Assembly: GCA_937921595.1 (NCBI GenBank)
Contig: CAKZTD010000439.1
Coordinates: 1-36,021, forward strand
Origin: an uncultured Saprospiraceae bacterium
GTDB taxonomy: Bacteria; Bacteroidota; Bacteroidia; Chitinophagales; Saprospiraceae
DNA: 36,021 nt
Direction of reading: 5' to 3'
Shown: in pieces, positions 1,378-27,144 of the stretch
Layout of the letters: each line of letters starts with the position of its first letter
How positions within the stretch are numbered: position 1 is the stretch's first letter
Notes under the pieces: generated by a model
What the model saw: only the letters and a program-made list of their open reading frames with translations
Databases searched by the model: none
What the model was told of the DNA's origin: nothing
Made by a program: the position numbers and the translations under genes

Positions 1378-1470
1378 TCCAAGTCCTTGGTAAATATCAT
1401 CCTCTGAAACTCCTTTGTCTCTTAATATAGTGGAAAATTATTAGGACTAATAGTGAGTCAAGGGCATCTT

Positions 1471-1602: not shown

Positions 1603-1653
1603 TCATTTTCTTCCGTTTAATATCTGCGAAAAAATAAAATAGATTACAGGGAT

Positions 1654-2571: not shown

Positions 2572-2606
2572 TTCCGCTTCTTATTCTAAGAGCAGGAATG
2601 ATTTTA
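2571..2606 (+). terminator. Rho-independent-like terminator after the HTH/PLD-like gene
   Basis: A hairpin starts at the last base of the stop codon. ATTCC pairs with GGAAT, GC with GC and TCTT with AAGA, with single-base bulges and an ATTCT loop (2571-2599). It is followed by gatttt. The T tract is short, so strength is uncertain. Confidence 0.5.
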
Positions 2607-3014: not shown

Positions 3015-3052
3015 GAAAAATATGGGTGTGTTGCCTTTTAGGGAGCACACCC
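3015..3052 (-). terminator. Rho-independent terminator of the minus-strand helical-protein gene
   Basis: On the minus strand GGGTGTG (3052-3046) pairs perfectly with CACACCC (3030-3024), with further pairing inside (CC/GG around a short loop). It is followed by a T-rich run (atattttt, 3023-3016). It sits 17 bases beyond the stop codon of the minus-strand gene. This is a canonical stem plus T tract. Confidence 0.75.
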
Positions 3053-3068
3053 TATTTGAAAATCTAAT

Positions 3069-4511: not shown

Positions 4512-4570
4512 TTTGTATATTTTTTTAGCCAAAAATGTAGTTAAAGGTAGTTTTTATAAAGATAGTTACT

Positions 4571-4579
4571 GTAAATATA
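4571..4579 (-). promoter_or_regulatory. Weak candidate -7 element for the minus-strand helical-protein gene
   Basis: Read on the minus strand the bases are TATATTTAC, one mismatch from the Bacteroidota -7 consensus TAnnTTTG. It lies about 60 bases before the chosen ATG in the only intergenic space between two divergent genes. AT-rich background makes chance matches likely. Confidence 0.25.
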
Positions 4580-4668
4580 CGGTGAAAAATATTAAAAACG
4601 AGAATTTGCTAGGGGCTATATATGTGTTATTGTTATGATCTTTAATGTGACCAAAACTTTGCAGTGAT

Positions 4669-4992
4669 ATGAAGCCTCAACGAAAACAAATCTTAGATAC
4701 ATTTGAAGAACATGTCTATTTTAAATTCAAAAAGCATTGTGAAAGGCATCAACTAACTTTTGAAATAAAGAGCCTTATTACTTTTTTAATTGATTTTGAA
4801 ATCATCTCGGACAAAACCGTTTTATATCACGTCATTGTTTATGAATTTGAGGAATTATATCGTCAAGAGAAATTTCAAAAAACAAAGACCGTAGCTAAAC
4901 TTGCCAATCGATTTAATATTTCAGAAAGAAGCATTTGGAATATTTTGAAAAAAGCAAAAATAGAATCTAGAAAAACTCAAACCTTAGGATAG
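4669..4992 (+). CDS. Small helix-turn-helix DNA-binding protein
   Basis: This 107-residue basic protein ends in a clear helix-turn-helix, about residues 75-98 (KTVAKLANRFNISERSIWNILKKA), with the AxLANRFNIS-RSIW spacing seen in Mor-like and sigma-70 region-4-like HTH modules. The N-terminal 70 residues are helical and may form a dimerisation unit (LITFLIDFEII). It lies 48 bases upstream of the EAD-bearing 711-residue gene and is divergent from the helical-protein gene at 4511. That is the usual position for an autoregulator of the following operon. A poor match to a Bacteroidota -7 element (AAACTTTG) sits only eight bases before the ATG, so I do not rely on it. The regulator role is inferred; HTH recognition is reasonably firm. 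Confidence 0.65.
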   Translation: MKPQRKQILDTFEEHVYFKFKKHCERHQLTFEIKSLITFLIDFEIISDKTVLYHVIVYEFEELYRQEKFQKTKTVAKLANRFNISERSIWNILKKAKIESRKTQTLG

Positions 4993-5040
4993 AAGACAAA
5001 TAAACACAGTACCTCTTTTACTTCAAAAAACAATTTAGAT

Positions 5041-7176
5041 ATGGAAATATCAGATCTTAAAATTATCGTTTATAATGAAATCGGCAAGGCAGAGATATCA
5101 AATGTTCTGCTAGTTCTTCGCGAAGTTTTGGATATCAGCACAGATACCTTCAAAGATTTTACAAGAGAAAGAGCAAGGTTTAATAACCTGAAAAAAGACA
5201 ACATGAAAGGTAATATGCCTTTTGATAGTTTTCTTATAGAGCGATCAAAAATTGTTGAATCTCTAACCGAATTACAAAATCAAATAGTAGAAGACGACCT
5301 GGTTGAGGGTTGGGCCAGTTTGCCAATCATTCAAAGTTATTTGGAAGAAGAAGATCCTCAAAATGGCGAAGAAGGAATACAGGATATTGCTTTAGGAGAA
5401 TATTCTGACATTGTCCTTACTCAAAATGCACCGTCTAATGGAGCTATTCAAGAATTAAACGAAGAGGATTTTGAGAAACTCGAAACCCTATTAATTAAAA
5501 CACAAGATGCTATTGAAGTCGAAGCTTATGATGAAGCAGAGGTGTATTGCTTGGAAGCAAAAGAAATTGATAAAAAAAGCCCTCAGGTTTATGAATATCT
5601 CGCGTTGATTTATTTTAAAAGAATGGATTCAAGTGATATTATAAAAGGGGCCATAAATGGGAGTGATTCGAAAAAGACACTTAGGCATATCTTTCAATAT
5701 GTTCGAAGGTTTAATCAGTTTAGCCATAGATATAGAAGTGATGCGATAAATATTGCAAGAGAAAATATTCGAACCATCGGAGTATTACTGACTGAAAGTC
5801 TAAAAGAAGAGTACCAGAAATTAAAATGGGATGAAAAAAATCTCGTCTGGAAATGCTTAGGGTTTTATATGGAAATATATGAGCTACTCAACCAGCCGAT
5901 GGGCTTTATGGACTCTGCTATTCTTGAATTGAGTGGAGCAGGAAAAGTACTTTGGCTTAGAGTAGAAAAAGACAAAATAAAAAATCGATATGGTCGAAAT
6001 TTTAATGCTTTAGGACTAAGAAAAAACTTTATAAATAAACTTATTGAAAACTATTCTAATGAGGAAAATACAGAAGAAGAAGTTATTCAAAAAACAGAAA
6101 AAAGATTAGCTAATAATTTCTACTATAAAATATTTAGAAATTATAATAGTATAAATCCTGTAAGAGATTCTAAAGGATGGAGTAGTTGGGATGACCAGCA
6201 AAAAAAAGAAATCATCCAATATTTAAATGCTTCGAAAGTAGGGTATCTGTTGTTTGAGAGCTCGGATTACCTAGAACCAGAAATAAAACAAAGGTTTTTA
6301 GAAACACCTTTTAAAGAGCTGGTCGGAAGAGGGAAGCCATTCTTGTCTTGGATTTCACTTTCTAATAATGGTCAACTTCAAACTTCAAAAAAAATAAGTA
6401 ACCTGAGATATCAAGCCATAAACGAATTAGAATTTTTAGCTAAAAAATTAAATATAGATTTTAAAAATCTAAAAATTGAATTAAAGAAATCCCTCTTCGA
6501 GAAGCAATTGAAATACAATCAAAGGCTATTTGACAATGTCTCTAAAGATATGTCTCAAGCAACAGTTACTGATCAGGAAAAAGCAAAAGCAAAGGTAGAT
6601 CTGATCAAATATATGCAACGCCAGTTTATGTTGGTACGACAAGAGATTGGAGAGGTAAATGAATATTTAGAACCTCCTTTAAAAGAATTACTCGGAAACG
6701 GATTTTTTAATGAATGGATAAAAGTTGGATTAGATGGTAATCTTGAAAATGATATCGATTCAGCTGCACTAAAGTTTGATGCTGTTGAATTGCTGATCAA
6801 GTTTCTCAATTGTAAAAAAGATTATCAATATAAATTTTCTACCATTGATGATGCCTTCTTTGAATCCTTTGCTAAAGTAAACTATAATAATTATCAAACG
6901 ATTTTAAAAAATAATCCAGTAATACTCCCTGAGGATGACTCCTATCAAATAATTGATATTATGAAAAACCTGGAGTTAACTTTTTTAGCAACAGGAAGGC
7001 CAGAGTTTCTCAAACCTGTTTACGACGAAATCTCTTCTAATAATTGGGTATTCAAAGAAAACGAAGAATTTAAAAATCAACCGAATTGTAAAGAATTAGG
7101 ATTTGATGCAGTGGAGTATTTAGAAAGAATTCATTCAATTATTCAATCTATACAATCTGCTCAAGTTCAGATTTGA
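5041..7176 (+). CDS. Large EAD11-like adaptor protein with TPR-like segment
   Basis: This is a 711-residue cytoplasmic protein. Residues about 1-90 match the effector-associated domain pattern found elsewhere in this locus: a helix ending in VLREVLDI, then FKDFTRERARFNNLKKDNMKGNM, then F--F-IERSKIVESLTELQNQI. This corresponds to 'sRF--L-r---g-it--e---E-nkI---Ll-lld' in the other three copies. An acidic linker follows, then a TPR-like hairpin at about 145-195 (AYDEAEVYCLEAKEIDKKSPQVYEYLALIYFK). The remaining roughly 500 residues are helical, with many Lys, Glu and aromatic residues and no motif I recognise. It is the first large gene of the operon, 15 bases before a stand-alone EAD protein. 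A scaffold, sensor or kinase substrate are all possible; I infer a scaffold because it joins an EAD to a large helical body. Confidence 0.65.
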   Translation: MEISDLKIIVYNEIGKAEISNVLLVLREVLDISTDTFKDFTRERARFNNLKKDNMKGNMPFDSFLIERSKIVESLTELQNQIVEDDLVEGWASLPIIQSYLEEEDPQNGEEGIQDIALGEYSDIVLTQNAPSNGAIQELNEEDFEKLETLLIKTQDAIEVEAYDEAEVYCLEAKEIDKKSPQVYEYLALIYFKRMDSSDIIKGAINGSDSKKTLRHIFQYVRRFNQFSHRYRSDAINIARENIRTIGVLLTESLKEEYQKLKWDEKNLVWKCLGFYMEIYELLNQPMGFMDSAILELSGAGKVLWLRVEKDKIKNRYGRNFNALGLRKNFINKLIENYSNEENTEEEVIQKTEKRLANNFYYKIFRNYNSINPVRDSKGWSSWDDQQKKEIIQYLNASKVGYLLFESSDYLEPEIKQRFLETPFKELVGRGKPFLSWISLSNNGQLQTSKKISNLRYQAINELEFLAKKLNIDFKNLKIELKKSLFEKQLKYNQRLFDNVSKDMSQATVTDQEKAKAKVDLIKYMQRQFMLVRQEIGEVNEYLEPPLKELLGNGFFNEWIKVGLDGNLENDIDSAALKFDAVELLIKFLNCKKDYQYKFSTIDDAFFESFAKVNYNNYQTILKNNPVILPEDDSYQIIDIMKNLELTFLATGRPEFLKPVYDEISSNNWVFKENEEFKNQPNCKELGFDAVEYLERIHSIIQSIQSAQVQI

Positions 7177-7191
7177 TAAAACAACAGCGTT

Positions 7192-7650
7192 ATGAATGAT
7201 CATGTTTTAAAATTGGTTGAGGCTGGTTTAATCAAAAAAGCACTAGAGGAAATGATTCCTCATGGATTACATAAAATAGAATGCACAGAACTCCTTTCTC
7301 GATTTTCTCAGAATGAAAGAGCGTTCAAAAAAGGATATGTCACCTCTGAGGTTTACAGAATCGAAAAAATAAAAATTACAGATATTCTCATTGAAATTTT
7401 AAATAGAGAAGAAACAGAAAAGAATAAAGGAGATTCGCTTCCATTTGCACTTTTGTTGCAAAGACAAAAGGCCAAAAATGTTGAGAGTCAAATTAAAATA
7501 GAAATGGAACGCCTCAATGCAATTAACAGAGATTTGAAAAAAGAAAATGACGAGGAGCGGAAAGTAAGTCTGAATATTCGAATCAAAGAAAAAGAAAAAG
7601 ATATCGATGATCTAATGAAGCAATTAAAAGAAATCAATAATAATATTTAA
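7192..7650 (+). CDS. Stand-alone EAD11-like adaptor with coiled coil
   Basis: This 152-residue protein has an EAD11-like domain in its N-terminal 75 residues: LVEAGLIKKALEEMI, LLSRFSQNERAFKKGYVTSE and YRIEKIKITDILIEILN. The rest (about 85-152) is a highly charged coiled coil rich in Lys and Glu (IKIEMERLNAINRDLKKEN, IRIKEKEKDIDDLMKQLKE). EADs mediate like-with-like contacts between components of NTP-dependent conflict systems. Here the coiled coil would oligomerise the adaptor and so could cluster the other EAD proteins of the operon. It sits between the large EAD protein and the vWA gene. It has no catalytic motif, signal peptide or membrane segment. Confidence 0.72.
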   Translation: MNDHVLKLVEAGLIKKALEEMIPHGLHKIECTELLSRFSQNERAFKKGYVTSEVYRIEKIKITDILIEILNREETEKNKGDSLPFALLLQRQKAKNVESQIKIEMERLNAINRDLKKENDEERKVSLNIRIKEKEKDIDDLMKQLKEINNNI

Positions 7651-7687
7651 AAACAAAAAGGCAGTAGTCTTCAAAAAACAATTAATT

Positions 7688-8362
7688 ATGGCTTATAATG
7701 ATTTTAGTACAGAGTCCCCTGAAAACTACGAACAAAAATGTTTGTGTGTACTTTTACTAGATGTTTCTGGTTCTATGCAAGGAGATCCTATTGATCAGTT
7801 AAATATAGGACTTCAAGAATTCCAGCAAGAAATTAAAAATGATCCTACTACATCCAATCGTCTGGAAATAGCTATTGTTACTTTTGGTAGTAATATAGAT
7901 GTTGTTCAAGATCCTTCCCTAATTAATAATTTCACTATGCCAACCCTAGCTGTTCATGGGTCTACTAAAATGGTAGATGGAATCAAACAGGCATTAGAAT
8001 TAGTAGATAGTCGGAAAAAATGGTACAGAGATAGTGGACAGCCTTATTATCGACCATGGGTTATTTTAATTACTGATGGAGTACCAGATGGAGATCAGGA
8101 TGTAGCCGGTATTTCGGTTGAAATAGAACAAGGGGTTCAAAATAAAACATTTATTTTTTATGCAGTAGGAGTGGAGGGGTATGATAAAAATATTTTAACA
8201 CAGATTTCTTCTCCAAGTATGCCGCCAAGTCCATTGAAAGGATTAAAATTTGGACAATTCTTTAAATGGCTAAGTGCTAGTATGTCCACAGTAGCAAGTT
8301 CTACTGATGGTGCAACAGTTGATCTTCCAGATCCTGACTGGATGAAAGGATTTACCATTTAA
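7688..8362 (+). CDS. TerY/YegL-like von Willebrand A domain protein
   Basis: A 224-residue single-domain vWA protein. The metal-ion-dependent adhesion site is complete: DVSGS near residue 25, the threonine in HGSTKM near 98, and the aspartate in ITDGVPDGD near 137. In the TerY-P triad, and in the E. coli YegI-YegK-YegL group, a vWA protein of this kind is encoded with a PP2C phosphatase and a Ser/Thr kinase. The next genes are exactly those, so the assignment rests on both sequence and context. No signal peptide is present, so it acts in the cytoplasm, probably as a metal-dependent scaffold or phospho-regulated partner. The C-terminal 40 residues (LKGLKFGQFFKWLSASMS) match the usual end of TerY-type proteins. 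Confidence 0.88.
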   Translation: MAYNDFSTESPENYEQKCLCVLLLDVSGSMQGDPIDQLNIGLQEFQQEIKNDPTTSNRLEIAIVTFGSNIDVVQDPSLINNFTMPTLAVHGSTKMVDGIKQALELVDSRKKWYRDSGQPYYRPWVILITDGVPDGDQDVAGISVEIEQGVQNKTFIFYAVGVEGYDKNILTQISSPSMPPSPLKGLKFGQFFKWLSASMSTVASSTDGATVDLPDPDWMKGFTI

Positions 8363-8389
8363 TTTTAATCTTAATTTAATTTATCTGTC

Positions 8390-10375
8390 ATGAAAAAATA
8401 TATTTTTTCAATACTATTTTATTGTTTACCACTTTTCTGTTTTTGCCAAACTGCTGCAGAGATTGAAATTATTGACGAAGCTCTTACTGAAATAGGAGGA
8501 ACCATTTCTATCAAATATTTTGAAGTAAGAGGTAAAAATGATGTTCTAACTGAAGAACATTTAAAGTCGCTGATCAATTTAAATAAAAAGGTGGAAAAAT
8601 ATTATCCTAAAGGAAATGATCTTACAAAAGATATTTACAATATTCGATTTTGTGTTCATAAAGAAACTAGAGATAAGCATTATAAAACCCATTCTAGTGT
8701 TGAAGAATATATCGATTTTGTTTTTGACGAGTATGTTAATACGGCTTTTAAAAGAGGAGGAGAATATGATGTAAGTCAAAAGTTAAAGGCTATCAAGAAA
8801 AAAGCAAAAGAGAAATATGATCAACTCGCCCCCGCAGATAAATCACCTGTAAAAACCATAGAATCTCCATCGGAAGTACTCATAGAAGAGGTTGATGGGA
8901 AAAGTACTTCTAAGGAAGATTCTATAAGGCAAGAGATGGCGAACAAAACGGACTCTCTAGATATGAAAAATAGAATTGATAGTTTGGAGGAAGTCGTAGC
9001 AGGTTTGAAAGCAACCAAAGAAAAGGAAGCTGAGAAAAAGAGAAATGAAGATGATAAGAACGATAATAAAGATACTGTTTTTAAGAGTAAAGCCTTTTAC
9101 TTCCTTTCTTTAATTGGGATTAGTTTATTAGGTGTGTTATTATTCAAAAATAGGAACAAATTAAAAATGAAAAAAATAGATAAACCCTTAATAGAATTAA
9201 AAAAAGAACAAGAAGAGAATGAAGAGAAAAAAAAGCGAGAAGTAGAGCCAACTAAAAAGAAAAACGAGAAGGGGATTAAGAAAATTAAAAACAAAAAATA
9301 TACTAAAAATAAGAAAAAGAAAGGAGATACGAAAGAGAAAGAAATTGTAGTAAATGCAGAAGTAGAGCATGATATTTCCGAAGAAAATGTAGCGGAGGAT
9401 CAGGAGGTTAAAAATCAAGATGCAGGTGGGGGAGTAGATGAAGAAAATCTCTCAGAAAAAGAAAATAAAGAAGGGGACCTAACTCCTCCTGTAAAATTTA
9501 CGGAGCAAACTTCAATTTCTAAATTTTTGACAGTCGGCGCTTCGGTTATCGGGAAATCACACATAGAGAATAATTTACCTTGCCAAGACAATCATTTCAT
9601 TAAAGAATTAGATTATGGTTGGACATTAGCGGTGACTGCTGATGGAGCCGGTTCTGCGAAAAGATCTGAAATTGGTTCCAAGCTCGTTAGTCATTTGAGT
9701 GTCGAAAAAGTATTTGTTGAAGCCCTTGAGAAAACCGATTGGTTTGAGAAAGGAGGATTTCCAAAAAATGATAATGAATGGGGGGATATTGCAAAAGAAG
9801 GTTTTAGGAAAATCTATGATGCACTATGCAAATATAGTCTCAATAGAGATGATACAGCTTTAAAAGATTTGGCTTGTACCGTGATCATTGCGATTATACG
9901 TCCAGAAGGAATTTTAGTCTCTCATATTGGAGATGGTAGAGCTGGGTATAAAAACAGTAAAGGAGAATGGAAGTCGATAATTGATCCCTATAGAGGAGAA
10001 GAAGCTAATTCGACGGTATTCATTACTTCAAATATTTGGGAAGAAAATCTTATCGACATATATATGGAATCTAGAGTAATCAAGGAGGATATCAAAGCAT
10101 TTACACTACTGTCAGATGGTTGCGAAAATCATGCTTTTAAGTGTAGTCATATAGATCCTGAGACTCAACTTTGGTCCGATCCGAATTTACCTTTCAGTGG
10201 TTTTTACGAACCGGTTATCGAGACTTTATTAAACCTTAAAAATGAAAATATTTCTAATAAAGAAATGCAGGAAAGATGGGAGAATTTTCTAAAAAATGGA
10301 AGCGAAGGATTGAAAAATGAATCAGATGATAAAACCATGATTCTAGGAATTTATCAAAGCGATGAAAAAGAATAA
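8390..10375 (+). CDS. Membrane-anchored PP2C-type protein phosphatase
   Basis: A 661-residue bitopic protein. Residues 1-20 form a signal peptide (SILFYCLPLFCFCQ), and about 20-230 an extracytoplasmic region that is Lys/Glu-rich and coiled-coil-like near its end. One transmembrane segment spans about 236-255 (FYFLSLIGISLLGVLLF). A very charged Lys/Glu linker of about 120 residues leads to a C-terminal PP2C_2-type phosphatase from about 379 to 655. Its metal-binding motifs are present: CQDNH, VTADGAGSAKRSE, SHIGDGRAGY, LLSDGCENHAF and DDKTM. The expected reaction is removal of phosphate from Ser/Thr, most likely from proteins phosphorylated by the two kinases just downstream. An exported N-terminal region on a PP2C_2 enzyme is unusual and suggests that its activity answers to an envelope signal. 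Topology is read from hydrophobicity only. Confidence 0.87.
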   Translation: MKKYIFSILFYCLPLFCFCQTAAEIEIIDEALTEIGGTISIKYFEVRGKNDVLTEEHLKSLINLNKKVEKYYPKGNDLTKDIYNIRFCVHKETRDKHYKTHSSVEEYIDFVFDEYVNTAFKRGGEYDVSQKLKAIKKKAKEKYDQLAPADKSPVKTIESPSEVLIEEVDGKSTSKEDSIRQEMANKTDSLDMKNRIDSLEEVVAGLKATKEKEAEKKRNEDDKNDNKDTVFKSKAFYFLSLIGISLLGVLLFKNRNKLKMKKIDKPLIELKKEQEENEEKKKREVEPTKKKNEKGIKKIKNKKYTKNKKKKGDTKEKEIVVNAEVEHDISEENVAEDQEVKNQDAGGGVDEENLSEKENKEGDLTPPVKFTEQTSISKFLTVGASVIGKSHIENNLPCQDNHFIKELDYGWTLAVTADGAGSAKRSEIGSKLVSHLSVEKVFVEALEKTDWFEKGGFPKNDNEWGDIAKEGFRKIYDALCKYSLNRDDTALKDLACTVIIAIIRPEGILVSHIGDGRAGYKNSKGEWKSIIDPYRGEEANSTVFITSNIWEENLIDIYMESRVIKEDIKAFTLLSDGCENHAFKCSHIDPETQLWSDPNLPFSGFYEPVIETLLNLKNENISNKEMQERWENFLKNGSEGLKNESDDKTMILGIYQSDEKE

Positions 10376-10400
10376 AGATTATTCTAAAAGCAATAATTAA

Positions 10401-12353
10401 ATGTCAGTTTATAGAGATTCAAATGGTGAAATTATACAACTAACTCAACCTCACTTTGCTGCTGGGGGAGAAGGTCAGGTATATTTCATTAAGGACTCTT
10501 TGAAATATCAAAATTGTTGCGCGAAAATATATTTTAAAAATAAAATAAATACTAATCGGCAAGATAAGTTGCAATATATGGTTTTGAATCCACCACCAAA
10601 TTTGATGAGTAGTGGATATCGAATATGCTGGCCCCTTAGTATTCTATTTAATGAAAAAGGTTTTTGTGGATTTATAATGCCTTTGGCATTTAAGAATAGT
10701 GAGTCACCTTATGAGTTATGTAATCCAAAAATCAATGCTAAACTTTCTTCTTATTGGCATCAGAAATATAGAAGAGATACGGATTTAGGAAGATTGTCAA
10801 GATTGAAGCTTTGCGTTAATATTGCTATTGCAGTACATGCAATTCACACGACAGCAAGATATATTTTATTAGATCTAAAACCTCAGAATTTATTAGTAAC
10901 AGATCATGGAAATGTTTCTATTATTGATTTTGATTCTATTCAAATTTCAGAAAATAAAAGAGTTTTATTTTATGGTTCTGCAGCAACAGCAGATTACATG
11001 CCTCCAGAAGCAAAAGGAGTGAATTTTCAAAAACAATATATTTCAAATCATTGGGATGAGTTTTCTTTGGCAGTCATTTTTTATCAATTGCTCACAGGTG
11101 TTCATCCTTATGCAAGTACGACCAAACCAGAGTATGGTGAACTTCCATCAATAGGAGAAAAAATTAGCTTCGGACTATTTGTTCATGGAAGCAAGAGTGC
11201 AAGTCATATCAAAGTGACTCCTCCTTTTCATAATACTTTTCACTTACACCTTGCTCCAGAAATTAGAAAACTATTTTTAAAAGCATTTGACTATGGGCAT
11301 ACCAATCCTAATGTAAGACCTTCTGCTGAAGAATGGGGAAAGACCCTTTTTAGAATTGTAAATAATACTGAAGTTTTACAACCTAAAACTAATTCACGAG
11401 CTCGAGTTGTTCCGGCTCCACAAGTTCCTCCTGTTCGACAAGCTGTTCCAATTAGACCGCCTAAACCAAGAGTTACTCAGCGAACCAGTAAAAAGAGAAC
11501 TGCCGCGGTAAAGGCCACGACTCCTGCATATAAAAGGAAAACTAATCAGCCAAAGCAGCCCTCAAATATTGGAGGAGTATTGGTTTTTGTGTTATTAATT
11601 TTACTAGCTATTGGAGGGTATTATTTTCTCTTTGGAAAGGGAAAAGAGCGCATGTATTCAAAGGAGGTAATTGTTCCAGAGGAAAAAGTTGACACTAAAA
11701 TATACAAGAAGTCAAAACAAGAAAAGGTTGTAGAAGATTTTATTACTTATATCGGAAATCAGCAATTGGATGAAGCTTACGAATTATCGAGAAATGAAAA
11801 CTGGAAATCAAAAAGCAGTTTTGTTAAAGGCTATGGAGGAGTTGTGTCAACGAATGTAAAAGAGATAAAACTTAGGAATTCACCTAAAAATTATCCAATT
11901 GTATGGATAAAGTATTATGCAAAAGACCCTGTCAATGATAGAAAAAAGCATGGCAGAGAGAATATTTTATATTATCAAGATTTTCATCTTCGGGATTTTA
12001 AGGGTGAATTTAAAATAACTAAAGCCACCTTAGAAACCCCTGAATTAAAAGTAGCCTTGGATTTTCTTGATTACTTAGCAGAAGGTGACTTAGAGGAAGC
12101 ATATGATCTTATAGATCCTTTCTGGATGCAGAAAAAATTATTTAGAGATGGGTATAAAGATATTACTAATCTTGAGATATATGATTTTAAAATCATTAAA
12201 AATAAAAATCCAAAGAAGTCTGTGATTTGGGTGAAATACTTTGCTAAAGATCCAGTCAATGATAGTTCTAGAGCTGGAGAAATGTACCATCAAAAATTCC
12301 ATATAAAAGAAATAAGCAATAAACTCAGAATTACAAGAATAGAGAAAGGTTGA
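10401..12353 (+). CDS. YegI-like Ser/Thr kinase with transmembrane anchor and duplicated exported domain
   Basis: A 650-residue protein with an N-terminal kinase domain, about 1-315: Gly-rich loop AAGGEGQVYF, Lys42 in CAKIYF, catalytic Asp158 in LLDLKPQN (replacing HRDxKxxN) and metal Asp176 in DFDS (replacing DFG). This D-LKPQN / DFDS form is characteristic of the YegI and TerY-P kinase group, so activity is plausible despite the missing HRD. A Pro/Lys-rich linker leads to one transmembrane helix at about 391-412. Beyond it lie two tandem copies of a domain of about 95 residues (roughly 440-535 and 550-650), each ending in a shared motif (VWIKYYAKDPVND and IWVKYFAKDPVND) and resembling NTF2-like or DUF4878 folds. 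The exported half probably senses; the cytoplasmic half phosphorylates. The PP2C gene is 25 bases upstream and a second kinase 24 bases downstream. Confidence 0.87.
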   Translation: MSVYRDSNGEIIQLTQPHFAAGGEGQVYFIKDSLKYQNCCAKIYFKNKINTNRQDKLQYMVLNPPPNLMSSGYRICWPLSILFNEKGFCGFIMPLAFKNSESPYELCNPKINAKLSSYWHQKYRRDTDLGRLSRLKLCVNIAIAVHAIHTTARYILLDLKPQNLLVTDHGNVSIIDFDSIQISENKRVLFYGSAATADYMPPEAKGVNFQKQYISNHWDEFSLAVIFYQLLTGVHPYASTTKPEYGELPSIGEKISFGLFVHGSKSASHIKVTPPFHNTFHLHLAPEIRKLFLKAFDYGHTNPNVRPSAEEWGKTLFRIVNNTEVLQPKTNSRARVVPAPQVPPVRQAVPIRPPKPRVTQRTSKKRTAAVKATTPAYKRKTNQPKQPSNIGGVLVFVLLILLAIGGYYFLFGKGKERMYSKEVIVPEEKVDTKIYKKSKQEKVVEDFITYIGNQQLDEAYELSRNENWKSKSSFVKGYGGVVSTNVKEIKLRNSPKNYPIVWIKYYAKDPVNDRKKHGRENILYYQDFHLRDFKGEFKITKATLETPELKVALDFLDYLAEGDLEEAYDLIDPFWMQKKLFRDGYKDITNLEIYDFKIIKNKNPKKSVIWVKYFAKDPVNDSSRAGEMYHQKFHIKEISNKLRITRIEKG

Positions 12354-12377
12354 TCAAGAGTAATTAAAGGAAGTTCA

Positions 12378-13733: not shown

Positions 13734-13752
13734 GCCTCCAAAAAACAAAATT

Positions 13753-15075: not shown

Positions 15076-15101
15076 ATAAATTATTAGAAACCTTTAGACT
15101 A

Positions 15102-15485
15102 ATGAAAAACAAAAAAAATAATAACAAAGGAATTATCATAAGTGGTGGAACGATAAATACAAATAATTTATCCGTTGGGAATAATGCAAGTATCAATTCG
15201 AAAGAGACGACTTCTGAAAATACAAAAAACGGACAAGACGATTTTCAAATTAATATTCAGAATTTAATTAGTGAAGGGAAGCTAGAAGAAGCAATAAAAG
15301 TCGTGAAAGAATTAGCGCAAAATAATAGTAATAAAAACTTGTTAAGAGGAATTTTATTGATTGCTTCAAACCATTCACTCCTTCAAGATCAAAAAATGCA
15401 TGATCTTATAACACTTGAAAAGTATAGTGTAGAAAACAGTAAAATCGCTAGCAATATTTTAACTCTCGTTGAATCAAAATTATAA
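15102..15485 (+). CDS. Small EAD11-like adaptor with Gly/Asn/Val repeat motif
   Basis: A 127-residue cytoplasmic protein in two parts. Residues about 8-32 (GIIISGGTINTNNLSVGNNA) repeat the motif that ends the upstream membrane protein. After a polar linker, residues about 47-127 form an EAD11-like helical domain: IQNLISEGKLEEAIKVVKEL, then HSLLQDQKMHDLITLEKYSVENSKIASNILTLVE. The motif would contact the membrane protein or polymerise, and the EAD would recruit another EAD protein such as the nucleosidase. That makes this gene a plausible bridge between membrane and effector, but the bridge is inference. It is followed two bases later by the zinc-ribbon gene, consistent with tight co-translation. 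Confidence 0.68.
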   Translation: MKNKKNNNKGIIISGGTINTNNLSVGNNASINSKETTSENTKNGQDDFQINIQNLISEGKLEEAIKVVKELAQNNSNKNLLRGILLIASNHSLLQDQKMHDLITLEKYSVENSKIASNILTLVESKL

Positions 15486-15487
15486 TT

Positions 15488-16084
15488 ATGAATTCAATAG
15501 ATCAAGGAAAATGTATAAATCTTAATTATTGTACGCTTGCTCAAAATGGAGTCATTCAAGAGGTCGCATCGGAGACTGAATTTAAATGCCAGGAATGCGA
15601 AAGAGCGTTAAGTCCAATTAATTCAAAAGAAAATTTTAGATTAATCAAGCCAGTTTTATTGGTTGCTAGTGTTCTTACGGTCTTTGGATGTTTAGCATTT
15701 TATATGACTTCTGAGAACTGGTTTCCTTCCTTTACGGATAAGCAGGAAGAAAATATTGATCCTGTTGTAAATCATCTAATTATTCAAGAAGAAGATTATA
15801 GCCATGATGAATTGAGAAACATACTCTTACATATTGGGAATGAGAATATTGATTTTGATGATAGAATTAAAGCTGCTGATGAATCGATCAATCTACATTT
15901 TTCTCCTCAAGCTCGAGTAAAAGAAATCGGATTGAATGGGACCGTAGTTAAAATTCATATGGCTAAAGATTATTTAATTTACCTGTCTAGTGTTATTACT
16001 TTAAAAGATATAGAAGTTTTAGAGTCGAAAATTTCAAAACAAGGTTCAAAATACAGAGAAGTTTCGCTTCGTGAAATACATTAA
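15488..16084 (+). CDS. Zinc-ribbon single-pass membrane protein
   Basis: A 198-residue protein. The N-terminal 40 residues hold four cysteines spaced as a zinc ribbon: C-x5-C at 9 and 15 and C-x2-C at 34 and 37, in the pattern GKCINLNYCTLA...FKCQECERAL. I associate this form with membrane partners of conflict operons, where it precedes various exported domains. One transmembrane helix spans about 52-73 (PVLLVASVLTVFGCLAFYM), placing the ribbon inside and the C-terminal 120 residues outside. The exported part has a helix-strand pattern (NILLHIGNENIDFDDRIKAADESI, then FSPQARVKEIG) resembling the exported NTF2-like proteins downstream. It probably passes a signal across the inner membrane. Zinc binding is inferred from the cysteines. 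Confidence 0.65.
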   Translation: MNSIDQGKCINLNYCTLAQNGVIQEVASETEFKCQECERALSPINSKENFRLIKPVLLVASVLTVFGCLAFYMTSENWFPSFTDKQEENIDPVVNHLIIQEEDYSHDELRNILLHIGNENIDFDDRIKAADESINLHFSPQARVKEIGLNGTVVKIHMAKDYLIYLSSVITLKDIEVLESKISKQGSKYREVSLREIH

Positions 16085-16087
16085 ATT

Positions 16088-16678
16088 ATGAAAAAATATC
16101 TCCTACTGCTATTTGTTTTGTCTCTTGTTTGTTCTACCGAGGCAAACAGTCAATCGAGATTAAGTCCAGAAGAGATAGCTGATTTCAACAGAGATGCAGT
16201 TGCAAAAATAAATACTTTAACTAATTATATTTCAAAAATTGGAGATAAGAAATATGGAGATGTCCGAGATAGATTTGTTGATTTAGCTGTTGATCTTTTT
16301 AGAAGTAATGCTCTAATTGAGGTTTCTTCAAAAAACAGAAATAGCACTAATTCATATGGTGTTCGAGAATATCTCAATAGGATGAAACAACTTAATTACA
16401 AAGTAGTCATTGTGGAATACGTTGCAGAGGCTTCTTACTTTAGTAAGTTTACGGAAGTGAAAAATGCTGATGGTTCTATTAAGTATATCGCGACTGCGAC
16501 TATTGGCCAACGGTTTTGTGGGAAAAGAAATGTCAATAATGAACTCGATAAAAACGATTGCCATTATGAAGATTATACTGAAAAAAATATTGAAATAGAA
16601 CTAAAGAGAATAAAGGATTATCATGGTGTGCATTGGGTCGTTTTACTTGGTGATATAAGGGTAACGAAAACTAAGTAA
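16088..16678 (+). CDS. Exported NTF2-like protein of unknown function
   Basis: A 196-residue protein with a signal peptide of about 21 residues (KKYLLLLFVLSLVCSTEANSQ) and no lipobox or membrane helix. The mature part reads as a helix pair (AVAKINTLTNYISKIG, VRDRFVDLAVDLFRSNALIEVSS), then YGVREYLNRMKQLNY and an antiparallel sheet, which is the layout of NTF2-like folds. The same 'VREYLNR / IRSYLGQ / FRTYLTS' element recurs in the two following exported proteins, so the three are probably related. It contains two cysteines late in the protein (FCGKR and DCHYED) that may form a disulfide in the periplasm. Function unknown; a periplasmic partner of the kinase or zinc-ribbon exported domains is the natural guess. 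Confidence 0.6.
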   Translation: MKKYLLLLFVLSLVCSTEANSQSRLSPEEIADFNRDAVAKINTLTNYISKIGDKKYGDVRDRFVDLAVDLFRSNALIEVSSKNRNSTNSYGVREYLNRMKQLNYKVVIVEYVAEASYFSKFTEVKNADGSIKYIATATIGQRFCGKRNVNNELDKNDCHYEDYTEKNIEIELKRIKDYHGVHWVVLLGDIRVTKTK

Positions 16679-16679
16679 A

Positions 16680-18083
16680 ATGAAACGGATAGAATATGTG
16701 GTCTTAATTCTTTTTGTATACTTGTCTGCTTGTAAAGGAGATCTTTCGGTTAGTAAGGAGCAGAAATCAATAGGGCAGGGTTCTATAGATTCTGCTTTGG
16801 TTTTTAATTTATTTACTGATAAAGATTCTAATAATCTAAGTTTTGATAATGATATTCTTAATTATAAAGTGAAACAAATAGATCAGTTTATTGATCGATT
16901 CAATTTTAAAGAAAACTTTAAAGGTCAAAGAATAAATAAGGCATTAACAATTAATGAACGGATAGAAAATATTTCTCATTTATTTGACAATCGATTTCTT
17001 GTTGACTGTGATACTAATTTGGTTATTCAATTTATTGAGAATATATGTTTAGAAGAAAAAAATATTGCTTTATCAGACCCTTTTGTTTTTTCTAAGATTA
17101 GTTATAATGTGCTATTTAAAAATAATCCTTCTAGCATAGAGGTTACACTGAAATATCAAACTAATTCTGATACCACCTTTCAATGGGTTTTTGCAGGTTT
17201 AAATGGAGAGTTTTTAAACATGGATATTTTTGCTAAACAAAATAACATCCTATATCCTAATGCTCATGAGTTTAATTTTTTGAGATTAAATAAATCCTTG
17301 CAAGATAATAAAGATGTTGTTGACCTGATGCCAACTGGTTTTAGTACAGATTTTAATAGTATCCTGTTGTATTTGTTACACGCTGGAGATTTAGAAGTCC
17401 AAGAAATAAAAAGTCACGAAATTCAGTTTTTGCAAATCAAAGATTGGATTTTTAAAGTGAAATTTATTGATCGATTTGAGGAAAATAGCGGATGGTTGAT
17501 TTATGAAATATTTCAAATATCTGATTCTATTAAAAACGAGTATTTGGCTCAACAACTACATGTGACTAATCGAAAAAATCTATTCGATTATCCAATTGGG
17601 AATAGTATTAATAATAAAAAGAAAGTGATTGATTTTAATTCAGTAGATCAACAAGCATTAAAAGATATAGTAAAAAAGTATGCAGCATGTATCGAAAATT
17701 TAACAGCCATCAATCAAGTTGGTTCTCAAGGAGAAGTAGACAGTTTGTTAAGTTTGTTTGTCTCTCCTGAAGCAAGAGTTGTTAATGACCTTTTAGATGG
17801 AGAAACAGATGAATTAATTTCTATTCGCTCTTATTTAGGTCAAATCGTTCAGATGAATCTAGATACTCAATTGATGAAAATTGATTTTCAATTCGACTCA
17901 GAATTACCCATCCGTTTTGAAGAAAGAGATTCCAATTATTATGCTTTAATCAATGTGATAAAAAATATTAGAATTGAAGGGGAAGTAGCGAAAGAAATTA
18001 AAGAAATAATTATTATCGATTTACGGAATAAAAAAATTGCAAATACATCAAACAATTTTAGTATTAAATCTAGTGTGCAATGA
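16680..18083 (+). CDS. Lipoprotein with NTF2-like C-terminal domain
   Basis: A 467-residue lipoprotein. The signal sequence ends in YLSAC with the lipidated cysteine at position 18 (IEYVVLILFVYLSAC). Residues about 45-300 form an unassigned region that begins IDQFIDRFNFKENF. The C-terminal 150 residues contain LSLFVSPEARVVNDLLDGE and ISIRSYLGQIVQMN followed by a beta-rich end, the NTF2-like arrangement seen in its neighbours. It starts one base after the previous stop and overlaps the next gene by four bases (ATGA), so translation is probably coupled. Being lipidated, it sits on the periplasmic side of the inner or outer membrane. No enzyme motif is visible. Confidence 0.62.
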   Translation: MKRIEYVVLILFVYLSACKGDLSVSKEQKSIGQGSIDSALVFNLFTDKDSNNLSFDNDILNYKVKQIDQFIDRFNFKENFKGQRINKALTINERIENISHLFDNRFLVDCDTNLVIQFIENICLEEKNIALSDPFVFSKISYNVLFKNNPSSIEVTLKYQTNSDTTFQWVFAGLNGEFLNMDIFAKQNNILYPNAHEFNFLRLNKSLQDNKDVVDLMPTGFSTDFNSILLYLLHAGDLEVQEIKSHEIQFLQIKDWIFKVKFIDRFEENSGWLIYEIFQISDSIKNEYLAQQLHVTNRKNLFDYPIGNSINNKKKVIDFNSVDQQALKDIVKKYAACIENLTAINQVGSQGEVDSLLSLFVSPEARVVNDLLDGETDELISIRSYLGQIVQMNLDTQLMKIDFQFDSELPIRFEERDSNYYALINVIKNIRIEGEVAKEIKEIIIIDLRNKKIANTSNNFSIKSSVQ

Positions 18084-19417
18084 TAGTCAAAAAATACAAT
18101 ATAAAACTTGCTTGTGTTCTGTTTTTATTAATGGCTTCTTCATTTTTAAATACCAATGATATTGCTTTTGAAAAAGAAATTGAATCTTTAGTAAATCAAT
18201 ACATTGAGAGTTTAGTTACTTATTCTAATAATTCTAATCCTCAAGATGTAGCGGTGTTGCAACTGGAATTATTAGACTTTTTTGAAGACCCCGGGCATTC
18301 CCATTATTATGACCTATTTGACGAAAGTGAGAATGATAAAATGGAATTTAGAACCTATCTGACTTCTATAGAAGACAATTATGGGAATAATATTGAAATC
18401 AATATCAAAGAACTTTCTATTGATGATTGTGTCGAAAATACAGGCGATGGAGAAGCTTTTGTAACGGCTACTTTTACAAAAGAAATGAAATATAATAACC
18501 AGTCTAGAACGGTAGAGAACATTCTTAAAGTTAATATCAATAGTAAACCATATCGGATTAATATTATTGGAATGCCGGAACATTTTAGTGATCCTTCTAA
18601 TTGTTCAGGGCAAAATAAATCAAAGGCCAAAAAGAAAGATGCCAAATCACTTTCGAAAAAATATATTCAACAAGGTGATGTTTTTTTTGCTAATAAGAAA
18701 TACTTAGAAGCTAAAGACGCTTATACTAATGCGAAATTTTATCAACTAGACTTAATAGAAATAAACGCCAAAATAAAGAAATGTGAGAACCTTATGAGTG
18801 TTGAAATATTTGAACAAAAGGCTGAGGTTTATTTTAGTCAAAAACAATACACACTGGCAAAGGAATATTATACAAAAGCACTGACTTTTTCTGGATCACA
18901 ATCCACATCAATAAGCACCAAAATACAAGAATGTGATAGGTTGTTTAATCTAGATAATTATAATTTTTATAAAAAACAAGGAGATCAATATTTTCAAAAA
19001 AAATATTACGTCAATGCTCATTCATCTTACAGGATTGCTGATAAATATAAACCTAATGATTCTTATGTCAATCAAAAAATAAAAGAATGTACGCTTGCAT
19101 TGAATAAACCAAAAAGTTCTTTTGCCTCGATCAAGAAAGAAATAAATGATGCGAAGCAAATGGCTAAAAGGAAAAAATATATAGAGGCTTTTAGGGTGAT
19201 GGATAAATATAAAGACAGTGGACAGTTGGATAAAGACGCTTATTATATCATGGCAATGATCCTTTATAAAAATGCGAAAGGTGTGCAAAGAAAAATGAAA
19301 TATTCTAAAACTCAGGCTTTTAATTATTGTCGTTTGTACATGCTTAAAGCTAAAAGTAAAGGACATCAGAAAGCAACTCATATGTATGATAATGTATTCA
19401 GTAGAAAAATTAAATAA
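18080..19417 (+). CDS. Exported NTF2-like / TPR repeat protein
   Basis: A 445-residue protein with a signal peptide (IKLACVLFLLMASSFLN). An N-terminal domain of about 150 residues contains EFRTYLTSIEDNYG and a sheet like the two preceding exported proteins, including a cysteine pair that may bridge (DDCVENT and DPSNCS). After a Lys-rich linker, three TPR-like units follow from about 190 to 340. Each begins with a helix of the form Q-GD-FF--KKY-EAK--Y--A and is spaced by I--KI-ECE-L; YFSQKQYTLAKEYYTKAL and YFQKKYYVNAHSSYRIA are the clearest. The last 100 residues are helical with a Sel1-like arrangement (AFNYCRLYMLKAKSKGHQKA). It probably builds a periplasmic scaffold. The start overlaps the previous stop by four bases. 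Confidence 0.65.
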   Translation: MIVKKYNIKLACVLFLLMASSFLNTNDIAFEKEIESLVNQYIESLVTYSNNSNPQDVAVLQLELLDFFEDPGHSHYYDLFDESENDKMEFRTYLTSIEDNYGNNIEINIKELSIDDCVENTGDGEAFVTATFTKEMKYNNQSRTVENILKVNINSKPYRINIIGMPEHFSDPSNCSGQNKSKAKKKDAKSLSKKYIQQGDVFFANKKYLEAKDAYTNAKFYQLDLIEINAKIKKCENLMSVEIFEQKAEVYFSQKQYTLAKEYYTKALTFSGSQSTSISTKIQECDRLFNLDNYNFYKKQGDQYFQKKYYVNAHSSYRIADKYKPNDSYVNQKIKECTLALNKPKSSFASIKKEINDAKQMAKRKKYIEAFRVMDKYKDSGQLDKDAYYIMAMILYKNAKGVQRKMKYSKTQAFNYCRLYMLKAKSKGHQKATHMYDNVFSRKIK

Positions 19418-19420
19418 ATT

Positions 19421-20212
19421 ATGAAAGATTTTAAATTAATTCCCCTGTTTTTTTTGATGTTTTACACTAGTTCTATTTTTTCACAAGGCGATTTCGATAT
19501 TGATTTTTCCCCAAAGCTTTTCTCTCTTCGAGAAGCCAGATTGTCTCTTGGCTTTGGAGCTGAGTTGGTTTATTTGCTTGATAGTGATGATGTTGCTAAT
19601 AGGGCAGTATACCATAGTTTTAGTGGGTCGCCAGAATCAATAAAATTTGATTATGATGACGACTTTCCGGGTGTCGGATATTATTTAGCATTAGATTTTT
19701 ATGCTCCTAATTCTATCATAGGATTCTATTCTGAATTGAAATATTCAATCACAAAATTCAAGATTAAAGACAATGATGACATTACTGACCAGTATGAAAA
19801 TTCCTTTTTTGAAATTCCATTCTATTTAAAACTTCGTCCGGGTAAAATTGAAAGTGATCATCATCTTTTAATTATGGCAGGAGGAGCTTATGCCTTTCCG
19901 CTAAGTGTAAAACATACGGTCGGTAATGTTGTAGATGAAGATATTGACCAGATGCGAAATTACTTAAGTTTAGGAGGGATGCTAGGTTATGAATATTATG
20001 CAGGTGATTTAATTTCTAGGTCTAGGTCAACAAAAAGTTCTTTAAATGACCAAGCGAGAGTAATAATTTATAGCAGATTTAATTATAGATTTCAGTCCCC
20101 CTTTAATCCTAATTATGGTGAGAGAGTTGTTGCGACTATTGATAACGATGATTTAATTTTTAAAGATCTTGCAGTGACATTTGGAGTAAGTATATTTTTT
20201 AAAATAAAGTAA
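19421..20212 (+). CDS. Outer-membrane beta-barrel protein
   Basis: A 263-residue protein with a signal peptide (FKLIPLFFLMFYTSSIFSQ) and alternating amphipathic strands typical of the porin/OMP_b-brl families (SLGFGAELVYLL, YYLALDFYAPNSIIGFYSELKYSIT, FEIPFYLKLRPGK, LLIMAGGAYAFPLSVK, YSRFNYRFQSPFNPNYG). The final strand is DLAVTFGVSIFFKIK, although the usual terminal aromatic is followed by three residues here. It lies three bases after the TPR gene and 27 before the nucleosidase, so it is embedded in the operon rather than next to it. An outer-membrane barrel inside a conflict system suggests a surface or periplasmic input. It could instead be a passenger gene. Confidence 0.7.
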   Translation: MKDFKLIPLFFLMFYTSSIFSQGDFDIDFSPKLFSLREARLSLGFGAELVYLLDSDDVANRAVYHSFSGSPESIKFDYDDDFPGVGYYLALDFYAPNSIIGFYSELKYSITKFKIKDNDDITDQYENSFFEIPFYLKLRPGKIESDHHLLIMAGGAYAFPLSVKHTVGNVVDEDIDQMRNYLSLGGMLGYEYYAGDLISRSRSTKSSLNDQARVIIYSRFNYRFQSPFNPNYGERVVATIDNDDLIFKDLAVTFGVSIFFKIK

Positions 20213-20239
20213 AATACCAAATAACATCAAATATAAAAT

Positions 20240-21694
20240 ATGAAGATCATCATCTTTACACCATTGGAGTTAGAATATTTGGCAATCAGAACAAACCTTT
20301 CTGAGTTAGAAAAAATTCCTGTCAATGGTATCGTTTATGAAAAAGGAATTTTCAAAGGTTCATATTTAAATTATGAAGTGATCTTGTGCCAAGCAGGGGT
20401 AACGAATAAGGTGATGGGCATTGCTGTTGAAAGAGCAATTCAATATTTTCAACCGTCTCTTGCAATTCTTTCAGGAATTGCAGGAGGTGTTAAAGATGTA
20501 TCTTTAGGGAGTGTGATTGTTGGACTTAAAGTTTATGATTATGAATCAGGGAAAGAGACAGAAAACGGATATGTAGCTCGACCGGAGTCTATTAACTTTA
20601 GCCCTGATCTGATCAGTTTTGCTCAATCTATTGCAAAAGATCAAAAATGGAAAGCCTCTCTTAAAACAGAAAAAGAAGATCCTCAAGTATTCTTCGGAGC
20701 TATTGCTGCCGGAGAGAAAGTGATTGCTTCTACAGATTCTGAACTTTATAAAAGGATAAAAAAATATTTTAATGATACGCTTGCGGTTGAAATGGAAGCA
20801 TTTGGTTTTGCAAAAGCATTGGAAAATCATCCTTTTGTAAAATCATTATGTGTGCGTGGGATTTCGGATTTACTAGACAATAAGTCGGATTCAGATAAGG
20901 AAGGAAGTCAACCTATCGCAGCTAGACATGCTGCTGGATTTATTTTTGAATTGCTCGATCAACTAGAAGAAAGGTATTTGATTTTACCTTTAATGGAACC
21001 TAAAAAACTTTCTAGTGAAATATTCAAAGCTGTTAAGACTGCATTAGATCAAGACCAACCTTTGTCAGAAGCTAGCTTAAATTTAATAAACCATATTGAA
21101 AAAGTTATTCCTCAGGCTTATAAGGAGTATGTGGAAGATCAAAAAGATGAAGATGCTCCAGCAGTTTTTAGATCGATGTTAAGAAAGAAAATGAATAGTG
21201 ATGATGAGCTGGTAAAAGTGTTTTCTAATTTATTAAATCTCTTAAATAGTATGAAAAATCAAGGTACAACCAATCAGAATACTACGATCAAAGACAACGA
21301 GATTAAACAGAATAAAGGAAATATAGCCTTTGGTAATCAAACGAACACTACCAACGATTTAAAAAATAATCAAGGCACTATTTATATTGCCGATACGATC
21401 AATATTAAACAAATACTTCAAGATACTCCCAAAGCAGAAAAAGTAGTAAAAGAAGAGGGTTTTGAAACTATTCGTTCATTGATTGCTCAGAATAAAATAA
21501 AATTAGCAATAGAGGCACTATTGATTAAAACGAATAATTCTAACGAAAAAAATTCAACGATCCTTTTTGCAAGCCGATGGAATGATCTTCAAAGACAAAA
21601 AAGAAACAAACTGATTACAAGTGAACAAAATAGAATTGAACACAATTTAATTGTTATTGGTGTATTAGAACTTTTAGATGACTTAGAAATATAG
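20240..21694 (+). CDS. MTAN/PNP-family nucleosidase effector with C-terminal EAD11-like domain
   Basis: A 484-residue protein. Residues 1-240 form a nucleoside phosphorylase/nucleosidase domain of the MTA/SAH nucleosidase type. Visible elements are Glu12 in TPLELEYLAI (the place of the catalytic-site Glu of E. coli MTAN), the GIAGGV phosphate/ribose loop, VEMEAFGFA with Glu184 and Met185 for ribose binding, and RGISDLLD with Asp210 as the general acid. A helical linker (about 245-340) and a Gly/Asn/Ile motif segment (NKGNIAFGNQTN, then GTIYIADTINI) lead to an EAD11-like domain at about 405-484 (IRSLIAQNKIKLAIEALLI, FASRWNDLQRQKRNKLI, NRIEHNLIVIGVLELLDDLE). PNP-superfamily domains act as ATP-destroying effectors in antiphage systems such as Detocs. 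I infer that this is the cytoplasmic effector; the substrate (ATP, SAH or another nucleoside) cannot be told from sequence. Confidence 0.85.
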   Translation: MKIIIFTPLELEYLAIRTNLSELEKIPVNGIVYEKGIFKGSYLNYEVILCQAGVTNKVMGIAVERAIQYFQPSLAILSGIAGGVKDVSLGSVIVGLKVYDYESGKETENGYVARPESINFSPDLISFAQSIAKDQKWKASLKTEKEDPQVFFGAIAAGEKVIASTDSELYKRIKKYFNDTLAVEMEAFGFAKALENHPFVKSLCVRGISDLLDNKSDSDKEGSQPIAARHAAGFIFELLDQLEERYLILPLMEPKKLSSEIFKAVKTALDQDQPLSEASLNLINHIEKVIPQAYKEYVEDQKDEDAPAVFRSMLRKKMNSDDELVKVFSNLLNLLNSMKNQGTTNQNTTIKDNEIKQNKGNIAFGNQTNTTNDLKNNQGTIYIADTINIKQILQDTPKAEKVVKEEGFETIRSLIAQNKIKLAIEALLIKTNNSNEKNSTILFASRWNDLQRQKRNKLITSEQNRIEHNLIVIGVLELLDDLEI

Positions 21695-22201: not shown

Positions 22202-22479
22202 TCTCTCAACAAAATTTGCATAAAAACATTATTCTATTAGAATTTGTTTAAAAATTCTGCTTGTCCAGTCAGGCGGTTTTTTTGAGGCCTCAGTAGCCTA
22301 GTATGAAATATAAGCAAGCTCTCAATGATGCAACAACTAGCAAAAAACACAGTTTAAGGTTTATTAAGTATATTGATTTAGGTATATTTTTTGTATAATT
22401 AATGATGAAAACCCGCCTCTTTAAGTTTTGTAAAATACCCAAAAGATTAATCTAACCCATATAACAAAAACTGCAAATA

Positions 22480-27143: not shown

Positions 27144-27144
27144 A

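Follow-up and report, generated by a model that had tools for sequence, protein, structure and literature searches.

The Detocs phage-defence system places an effector of the PNP superfamily, DtcC, under two-component phospho-signalling. PNP effectors have also been described for EAD-linked conflict systems (VMAP, iSTAND and DO-GTPase/GAP1), in which several copies of one EAD occur on the enzymatic effector and on other components and EAD pairing has been described; a kinase-PP2C-vWA set is one theme of the actinobacterial GAP1-N2 loci, according to the portions of Kaur et al. 2020 drawn on here (PMC7159879). Adjacent vWA, PP2C and Ser/Thr kinase genes make up the TerY-P triads, whose kinases carry zinc-ribbon or OB tails according to the cited part of PMC11090510, and short Gly/Asn-rich motifs at the facing termini of neighbouring proteins, as in BASS, are amyloid signalling motifs in the terms of the passages used from PMC8086366. 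Here, we analysed a contig of 36,021 nucleotides (CAKZTD010000439.1, hereafter the window), taken whole from the 8.04 Mb draft genome of an uncultured Saprospiraceae bacterium. The locus at positions 4669-21694 has parts of known kinds in a combination that looks new, and searches of the literature, covering open-licence PMC papers, found no title naming this assembly. We judge it moderately likely that the locus is a conflict operon, most likely anti-phage and dormancy- or death-inducing, in which an inner-membrane phospho-switch triggers a nucleosidase (PNP-EAD11) through motif and EAD11 contacts.

The locus contained 15 main open reading frames (ORFs), rather than the sixteen genes counted in a preliminary description, every one on the + strand. 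Gaps between them were 48, 15, 37, 27, 25, 24, 19, 26, 2, 3, 1, -4, 3 and 27 bases (maximum 48), and 785 bases separated the last gene, PNP-EAD11, from the following one. Same-strand ORFs with gaps of 48 bases or less support one operon-like run, in line with the single packed operon of that description. Its domain list held for vWA, PP2C, two kinases, PNP and EAD11, all recovered by Pfam; EAD11 was present in four proteins, the PNP effector among them, with one (EADsm) borderline, scoring 24.9 bits in the Pfam scan (cut-off 26) and 26.7 bits in the genome search. The vWA, PP2C, both kinases and the PNP all carry active- or metal-site motifs, which we take to be catalytic.

The switch consists of a TerY-like vWA protein with its MIDAS residues (7688-8362, +; PF00092, 1.2e-9), a PP2C protein (8390-10375, +; PF13672, PP2C_2, 5.6e-36) and two kinases, kinA (10401-12353, +; PF00069, 4.2e-16) and kinB (12378-13733, +; PF00069, 7.7e-12), the latter with 45% identity to kinA and a C-terminal hydrophobic segment. 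These adjacent genes, with their active-site motifs, correspond to a TerY-P triad. The window differs in having two kinases, whose C-terminal parts have a transmembrane segment (TM) and further segments where a zinc ribbon or OB fold would be expected (neither kinA nor kinB had a Pfam ribbon or OB match), and in a PP2C predicted to span the membrane. Neither vWA nor PP2C matched a PADLOC model, whereas the kinases matched kinase models such as PD-T4-6.

Topology was called with a hydropathy heuristic and lysine/arginine (K/R) counts rather than a trained predictor. PP2C begins with a signal-peptide-like segment and has its TM at residues 234-252, with three K/R before and seven after. This should leave about 200 residues outside and put the catalytic C-terminus in the cytosol; the earlier label of a signal-peptide PP2C suits the start of the protein, which looks exported, and not its catalytic domain. 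For kinA (TM 393-411), four K/R on either side did not settle the orientation. An N-terminal kinase domain needs cytosolic ATP, which would place the kinase half in the cytosol and the C-terminal domain presumably outside. This latter domain is duplicated, as first described (repeat score of 181 against a shuffled mean of 31, reached by 0 of 1000 shuffles), while its export, claimed at the same time, is a presumption.

An alignment of five vWA proteins, searched against a species-genome collection, gave at least 37 loci (100 stretches matched patterns), in which our own ORF calls recognised vWA in 35, PP2C in 26 and a kinase in 24 of the 37. In the vWA tree, the window fell inside a set of 16 rows (support 100/99, one very long row included) from Desulfococcaceae, Candidatus Marithrix, Flavobacteriaceae, Prevotella, two Saprospiraceae and others; the remaining Saprospiraceae vWAs fell among 23 Bacteroidota rows, apart from this set. 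The closest vWA among the matches listed, at 62% identity, came from a Desulfococcaceae genome. By the same heuristic, a TM ahead of the PP2C domain was predicted in six of the nine PP2Cs on the window's side of the tree (L065, L067, L068, L075, L078 and L097) and in none of the 17 on the other, and the L064 kinase showed, by eye, a duplicated segment past a TM. On these grounds the inner-membrane form of the triad is, as judged from predicted topology, a recurring variant, and the envelope crossing first proposed is supported for the inner membrane, in a form found in other taxa. EAD11 was found anywhere in the genome in five of the 28 vWA-locus genomes searched (28 of the 37 loci given). A kinase match at 1e-20 occurred in eight of 150 family genomes, the own genome included, most copies having no vWA and PP2C alongside in the stretches read; a PP2C search of 395 phylum genomes, scoring the best three candidates per genome, returned the own genome only. 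In two Bacteroidales loci (L068:10001-11454 and L075:10001-13064), a pair of vWA genes came ahead of those for the exported PP2C and the kinase; some CoCoNuT operons carry duplicated TerY vWA genes, according to the cited part of PMC11090510.

The putative effector, PNP-EAD11 (20240-21694, +), combines a PNP_UDP_1 domain (PF01048, 1.2e-20) with a C-terminal EAD11 (PF19964, 9.2e-15). The motifs LELEY, EMEA and ISD, at 9, 184 and 208, match the Glu/Glu/Asp pattern that is presumably catalytic in PNP-superfamily nucleosidases, and domain and motif positions together place the protein in that superfamily; by sequence, the solved proteins nearest to it are MTA/SAH nucleosidases. PADLOC matched it to PDC-M60C and to a PN-superfamily effector model. 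Judged from the genes alone, it resembles DtcC as a PNP-superfamily effector under a phospho-signalling switch, here with Ser/Thr kinase and PP2C in place of a two-component system. Among 199 family genomes, of which the best eight candidates each were scored, the protein was present in 22, the own genome included, with 28 further places in 21 other genomes, all of which were fetched. The PNP/EAD11 nucleosidase, newly brought out here, is an effector family of Saprospiraceae.

Three genes form a conserved frame around this effector: w02 (1654-2571, +; 305 amino acids, no Pfam family above cut-off) and tprR (3069-4532, -; 487 amino acids, TPR-like), both outside the 15-gene run, and hth (4669-4992, +; 107 amino acids, HTH-like, with weak Pfam HTH matches below cut-off), the first gene of the run, from which tprR is divergent. 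At the 28 PNP loci, tprR was found in 22, hth in 18, w02 in 16 and all three in 12, and tprR would be expected in 1.26 of the 28 at own-genome density. The PNP loci without tprR were L130, L134, L144, L145, L174 and L175, with PNP near a contig end in L130, L134 and L175. Across comparison loci (sets of 20, 37, 20 and 25), hth and w02 occurred in none, and tprR in 1 of 20, 0 of 37 and 0 of 20, the remaining 25 having been chosen for tprR. PNP was the next recognised gene after hth in 14 of the 18 hth-bearing loci (the order differed in L141, L170, L171 and L172); thirteen genes lie between the two in the window. The frame genes at 1654-4532 fell outside the coordinates of the preliminary description, which mentioned neither the frame nor the paired motif presented below. 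In the own genome, tprR has 27 copies (loci L176-L187 and L188-L212), many adjoining large proteins with signal-peptide-like starts, and CHAT-profile matches were observed at three of the fetched loci (L198, L201 and L211). A role of tprR as a general frame within that genome was rejected, since neither hth nor w02 occurs near its other 26 copies (25 stretches, two of them overlapping). Six rows of tprR copies showed one internal stop, yet ORF calls gave uninterrupted frames, and we make no claim of internal stops.

Part of the neighbour genes at the 28 PNP loci were scanned with Pfam, and PNP relatives were found beside several known triggers, which supports the earlier idea of a conflict-type locus with a nucleosidase effector. 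In L168, the w02/tprR/hth frame and PNP enclose four genes (GASH, DO-GTPase2, DO-GTPase1 and GAP1-N1 with EAD1) in the hth-to-PNP slot, so that GTPase-system genes occupy the position of the triad in the window; they replace the triad and the EAD11 genes, and the PNP of this locus has no EAD11. Such a substitution is made credible by the PNP effectors, EAD pairing and actinobacterial kinase-PP2C-vWA theme in the cited portions of Kaur et al. 2020. The window resembles the systems described there in its several copies of one EAD on an enzymatic effector and on other components; its switch differs in being one of phosphorylation, and none of its 15 ORFs had a Pfam match to MoxR, STAND or GTPase. 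Elsewhere, PNP adjoins a DncV-like cyclase, E2-E1 and JAB in L145 (PADLOC: cyclase 4.8e-110, E1-E2 2e-138, JAB 2.6e-50); AAA_5, VWA_CoxE and a TIR protein (its iSTAND match falling below threshold) in L174; GrpE, HSP70 and HSP70-VWA in L130; a DO-GTPase2 match in L140 (28.0 bits against a cut-off of 27); ThiF/JAB in L173; and ZorA/ZorB-like genes in L131. In L144 it sits in a GAP1-N1 fusion. The L145 genes (371-5671, -) have a CBASS type II layout, the effector of which carries a SAVED/peptidase-effector-like N-terminus followed by PNP and EAD11. In L174 (3-3770, -, up to the contig end), one protein combines caspase (Peptidase_C14), CHAT, PNP_UDP_1 and FGE-sulfatase domains.

A second association of triad and effector was found in L143, where vWA, PP2C, kinase, tprR, w02 and PNP-EAD11 lie within one 20 kb stretch. 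A hidden Markov model (HMM) scan for vWA, PP2C and kinase showed that the triad genes (VWA, PP2C_2 at 7.5e-14 and Pkinase at 4.1e-11) point away from tprR and are followed by DUF4407 and SIR2-like genes (stretch 13155-19900), with PNP-EAD11 on the opposite side of tprR. Unlike the window, L143 has a divergent, apparently soluble triad and a PNP in a separate transcription unit, and hth was not found. A DUF4407 gene near PNP-EAD11 was likewise observed in L140. L143, L168 and the envelope block L166, described below, are on separate contigs of one genome (G137).

Between triad and effector, mem440 (13753-15075, +; ATG start chosen, alternative TTG at 13687) encodes a membrane protein, and ead127 (15102-15485, +) an adaptor with an N-terminal motif followed by EAD11 (PF19964, 2.1e-13). 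A Gly/Asn-rich motif is common to the last residues of mem440 and the first residues of ead127, with a score of 82 against a shuffled mean of 28.9 and maximum of 57, reached by 0 of 2000 shuffles. These facing termini recall BASS, a likeness drawn from sequence alone; in the window, however, the receptor-side carrier is a membrane protein and its partner an EAD11 adaptor, and none of the 15 ORFs had an NB-ARC, NACHT or STAND Pfam match of the kind that marks NLR receptors. A Streptomyces relative of mem440 (27.6% identity over the whole length, E 2e-49) has a similar tail, and an FHA domain (7.2e-14), a reader of phosphothreonine, is present in a relative from Nonomuraea. In these two actinobacterial loci, from a plasmid collection, mem440 was the sole window protein with a match; no other relatives appeared in the fetched sets, and a search of 395 phylum genomes, scoring the best four candidates per genome, returned the own genome only. 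A motif HMM, seeded by nine PNP tails of relatives, iterated and run on 1825 proteins, matched 17 at E 0.1, namely 12 PNPs, four small [motif]-[EAD11] proteins and one 886-amino-acid neighbour (L130). The genes of the four small proteins adjoin PNP in L127, L133, L136 and L139, on the strand opposite to PNP in L127 and L136.

The genes between ead127 and PNP-EAD11 include a block of four envelope genes: z198 (15488-16084, +), with a Cys-containing N-terminus, a TM and a domain that is probably exported; sp196 (16088-16678, +), predicted to be exported; tpr445 (18080-19417, +), a predicted exported TPR protein; and omp263 (19421-20212, +), an outer-membrane barrel candidate. The periplasmic TPR protein and outer-membrane barrel previously named thus stand as candidates, the Pfam TPR and OMP_b-brl_2 (PF13568) matches lying below cut-offs, whereas the lipoprotein, lipo467 (16680-18083, +), does look like one by a lipobox heuristic. 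Relatives of tpr445 were found in two other genomes among the 150 family genomes searched. In L166, z198, sp196, tpr445 and omp263 relatives are contiguous and in the window's order (identities of 33, 27, 23 and 22%), next to another tprR copy, an M48 peptidase, a PKD/CHU_C protein and a PorP/SprF protein, together with a VWA_2 protein having a signal-peptide-like start; PNP was not found near the block. L167 carries tpr445 and omp263 relatives. A tpr445 profile match in L143 is a TPR-rich protein and was not counted as a relative. A 59-column segment is shared by sp196 and z198 (hhalign, 87.7%). Grouping the exported domains as one NTF2-like family was rejected, since pairwise shuffles gave no consistent support and hhalign joined only sp196 and z198. 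By phmmer, the five exported proteins had no match in 20 kinase loci or 37 vWA loci. From the same-order recurrence in L166 without the triad, the envelope genes are, to judge from gene order, a real module independent of the triad; the preliminary description had made the envelope arm depend on recurrence with the triad, and the genes do recur as a block in L166, with tpr445 and omp263 also in L167, but with no triad there.

In the mechanism that we favour, a TerY-P-like vWA-PP2C-kinase-kinase set would act as a switch across the inner membrane. The exported parts of PP2C and kinA would read periplasmic cues and shift the kinase/phosphatase balance at the inner face, and the phospho-state would be passed on to mem440, the tail motif of which may template the same motif on ead127; the pairing comes from sequence, and the membrane side and templating are supposed. 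The EAD11 of ead127 would then meet that of PNP-EAD11, and probably those of EADbig (5041-7176, +; 711 amino acids, with an N-terminal EAD11, PF19964 1.6e-7, and an otherwise uncharacterised region) and EADsm (7192-7650, +; 152 amino acids, EAD11 followed by a Lys/Glu-rich tail), so that the nucleosidase is clustered and activated. Active PNP would split a nucleotide or nucleoside, halting the cell, and w02, tprR and hth probably control expression. The envelope block would move as a module of its own and may provide the outer signal or sense it. This reading draws on the gapless same-strand run, on L168, where frame and PNP enclose GTPase genes at the triad's position, on the divergent triad by tprR in L143 with PNP-EAD11 on the far side, and on the known triggers beside PNP relatives (L145, L174, L130, L144, L173 and L131). 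It draws as well on the membrane-anchored PP2Cs of the window's side of the vWA tree, on the mem440/ead127 motif match with the FHA-bearing mem440 relative and the [motif]-[EAD11] proteins beside PNP in four loci, and on the active-site motifs.

Several results weigh against it. All 37 vWA stretches lacked EAD11 and PNP. Of the 28 other PNP loci, several of them short contigs, only L143 had a triad. That triad is divergent, the window's triad proteins had no phmmer match there at 1e-3, neither a signal peptide nor a TM is predicted in its PP2C, and the opposite-strand tprR stands between triad and PNP, which are not in one operon. The motif HMM from PNP relatives matched none of the window's proteins at E 0.1, so the window's motif is tied to that of the relatives by architecture, not score; nor was the window PNP significantly similar to the mem440 or ead127 motif, 616 and 251 of 2000 shuffles, respectively, reaching the score. 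No triad gene was found around the copies of the envelope block (L166, L167 and L213-L215), and models of the exported domains, built from single sequences, were too weak for use (pLDDT 52 and 43).

The wider reading, an outside-in alarm, is a tentative one, which we hold possible and well short of probable. Here, the envelope proteins and exported kinase/phosphatase domains would read surface damage or contact; by way of a prion-like motif anchored in the membrane and of EAD11 contacts, the phospho-switch would pass this signal to a suicide nucleosidase. Such an alarm would stand in for the triggers (GTPase, chaperone or cyclic-nucleotide) found beside the same effector family in sister genomes. 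Of the trans-envelope alarm originally proposed, the inner-membrane switch is supported and an outer-membrane trigger stays conjectural, with no direct support. It is somewhat unlikely, though the most tenable of the alternatives, that triad and adaptors respond to an intracellular cue (such as a phage component) in triggering PNP and that z198-omp263 are passenger cargo with a surface function of their own. The company of the block in L166 (tprR copy, M48, VWA_2, PKD/CHU_C and PorP/SprF, with triad and PNP absent), the zinc-ribbon or OB tails described for TerY-P kinases in the cited part of PMC11090510, and the PP2C by PNP-EAD11 in L143, which has no predicted TM, all favour such cargo; yet the block lies inside the run, between adaptors and effector, with gaps of -4 to 27 bases, and the window's PP2C and kinA themselves have apparently exported parts.

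We regard as improbable a composite operon, in which a hotspot has brought independent modules under shared transcription and the triad and PNP do not signal to each other. It would agree with the absence of EAD11 and PNP from the 37 vWA stretches, with the 27 of 28 other places, several of them short contigs, in which PNP has no nearby triad, and with the differing distributions of the modules; it sits poorly with a PNP that repeatedly adjoins a switch module, the slot in L168 being held by a GTPase switch, with the second triad by tprR and PNP-EAD11 in L143, and with EAD11 copies both beside the triad and on PNP. Also considered, and very improbable, is a TerY-P switch that responds to metal or stress, with a PNP that works as a metabolic or second-messenger enzyme rather than an immune effector. 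PNP relatives bearing EAD11 speak against it, being found in the CBASS II layout of L145 and next to other conflict modules; in its favour, the cited part of PMC11090510 treats TerY-P triads as hypothetical phosphorylation switches for metal sensing, and MTA/SAH nucleosidases are, as given above, the solved proteins nearest to PNP by sequence.

EADbig, EADsm and lipo467 had no relatives in the fetched locus sets. A terminator-like hairpin and T-run, as a pattern only, was found at 22257-22276 (+), 3' of PNP; terminator-like sites numbered nine, against 6.7 (sd 2.9) in shuffles, and internal terminators in the run were rejected, the + strand matches sitting in coding sequence and the total being near the shuffled number. 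A Bacteroidota promoter pattern matched the + strand only at 119 and 22544, with none in the run, and the - strand eight times. Upstream of w02, a CHAT gene (E 4e-43) extends from the contig edge (1-1377). Beyond the run, 22480-25531 holds a FIST sensor gene and, after it, one for a hybrid PAS histidine kinase, and 25584-35886 (-) a separate cluster with a cytochrome-c-like protein, a DUF5777 barrel and a 1650-amino-acid protein with copper-binding, PKD and Por-secretion-tail domains. The own genome contains four further EAD11 genes, on C101, C143, C203 and C278 (L003, L004, L005 and L007). By eye, one of these has a DUF4062-like N-terminus; another has seven predicted TMs, and two have one TM, the last of the four ending, again by eye, in an OmpA-like C-terminus.

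Taken with the preferred reading of a phospho-switched conflict operon, these results suggest that these bacteria keep one effector in one conserved frame and set interchangeable immune triggers beside it, and that one such trigger can be Ser/Thr phosphorylation acting across the inner membrane. If so, the locus could offer a bacterial counterpart of receptor-kinase immunity, in a defined set of 15 genes.

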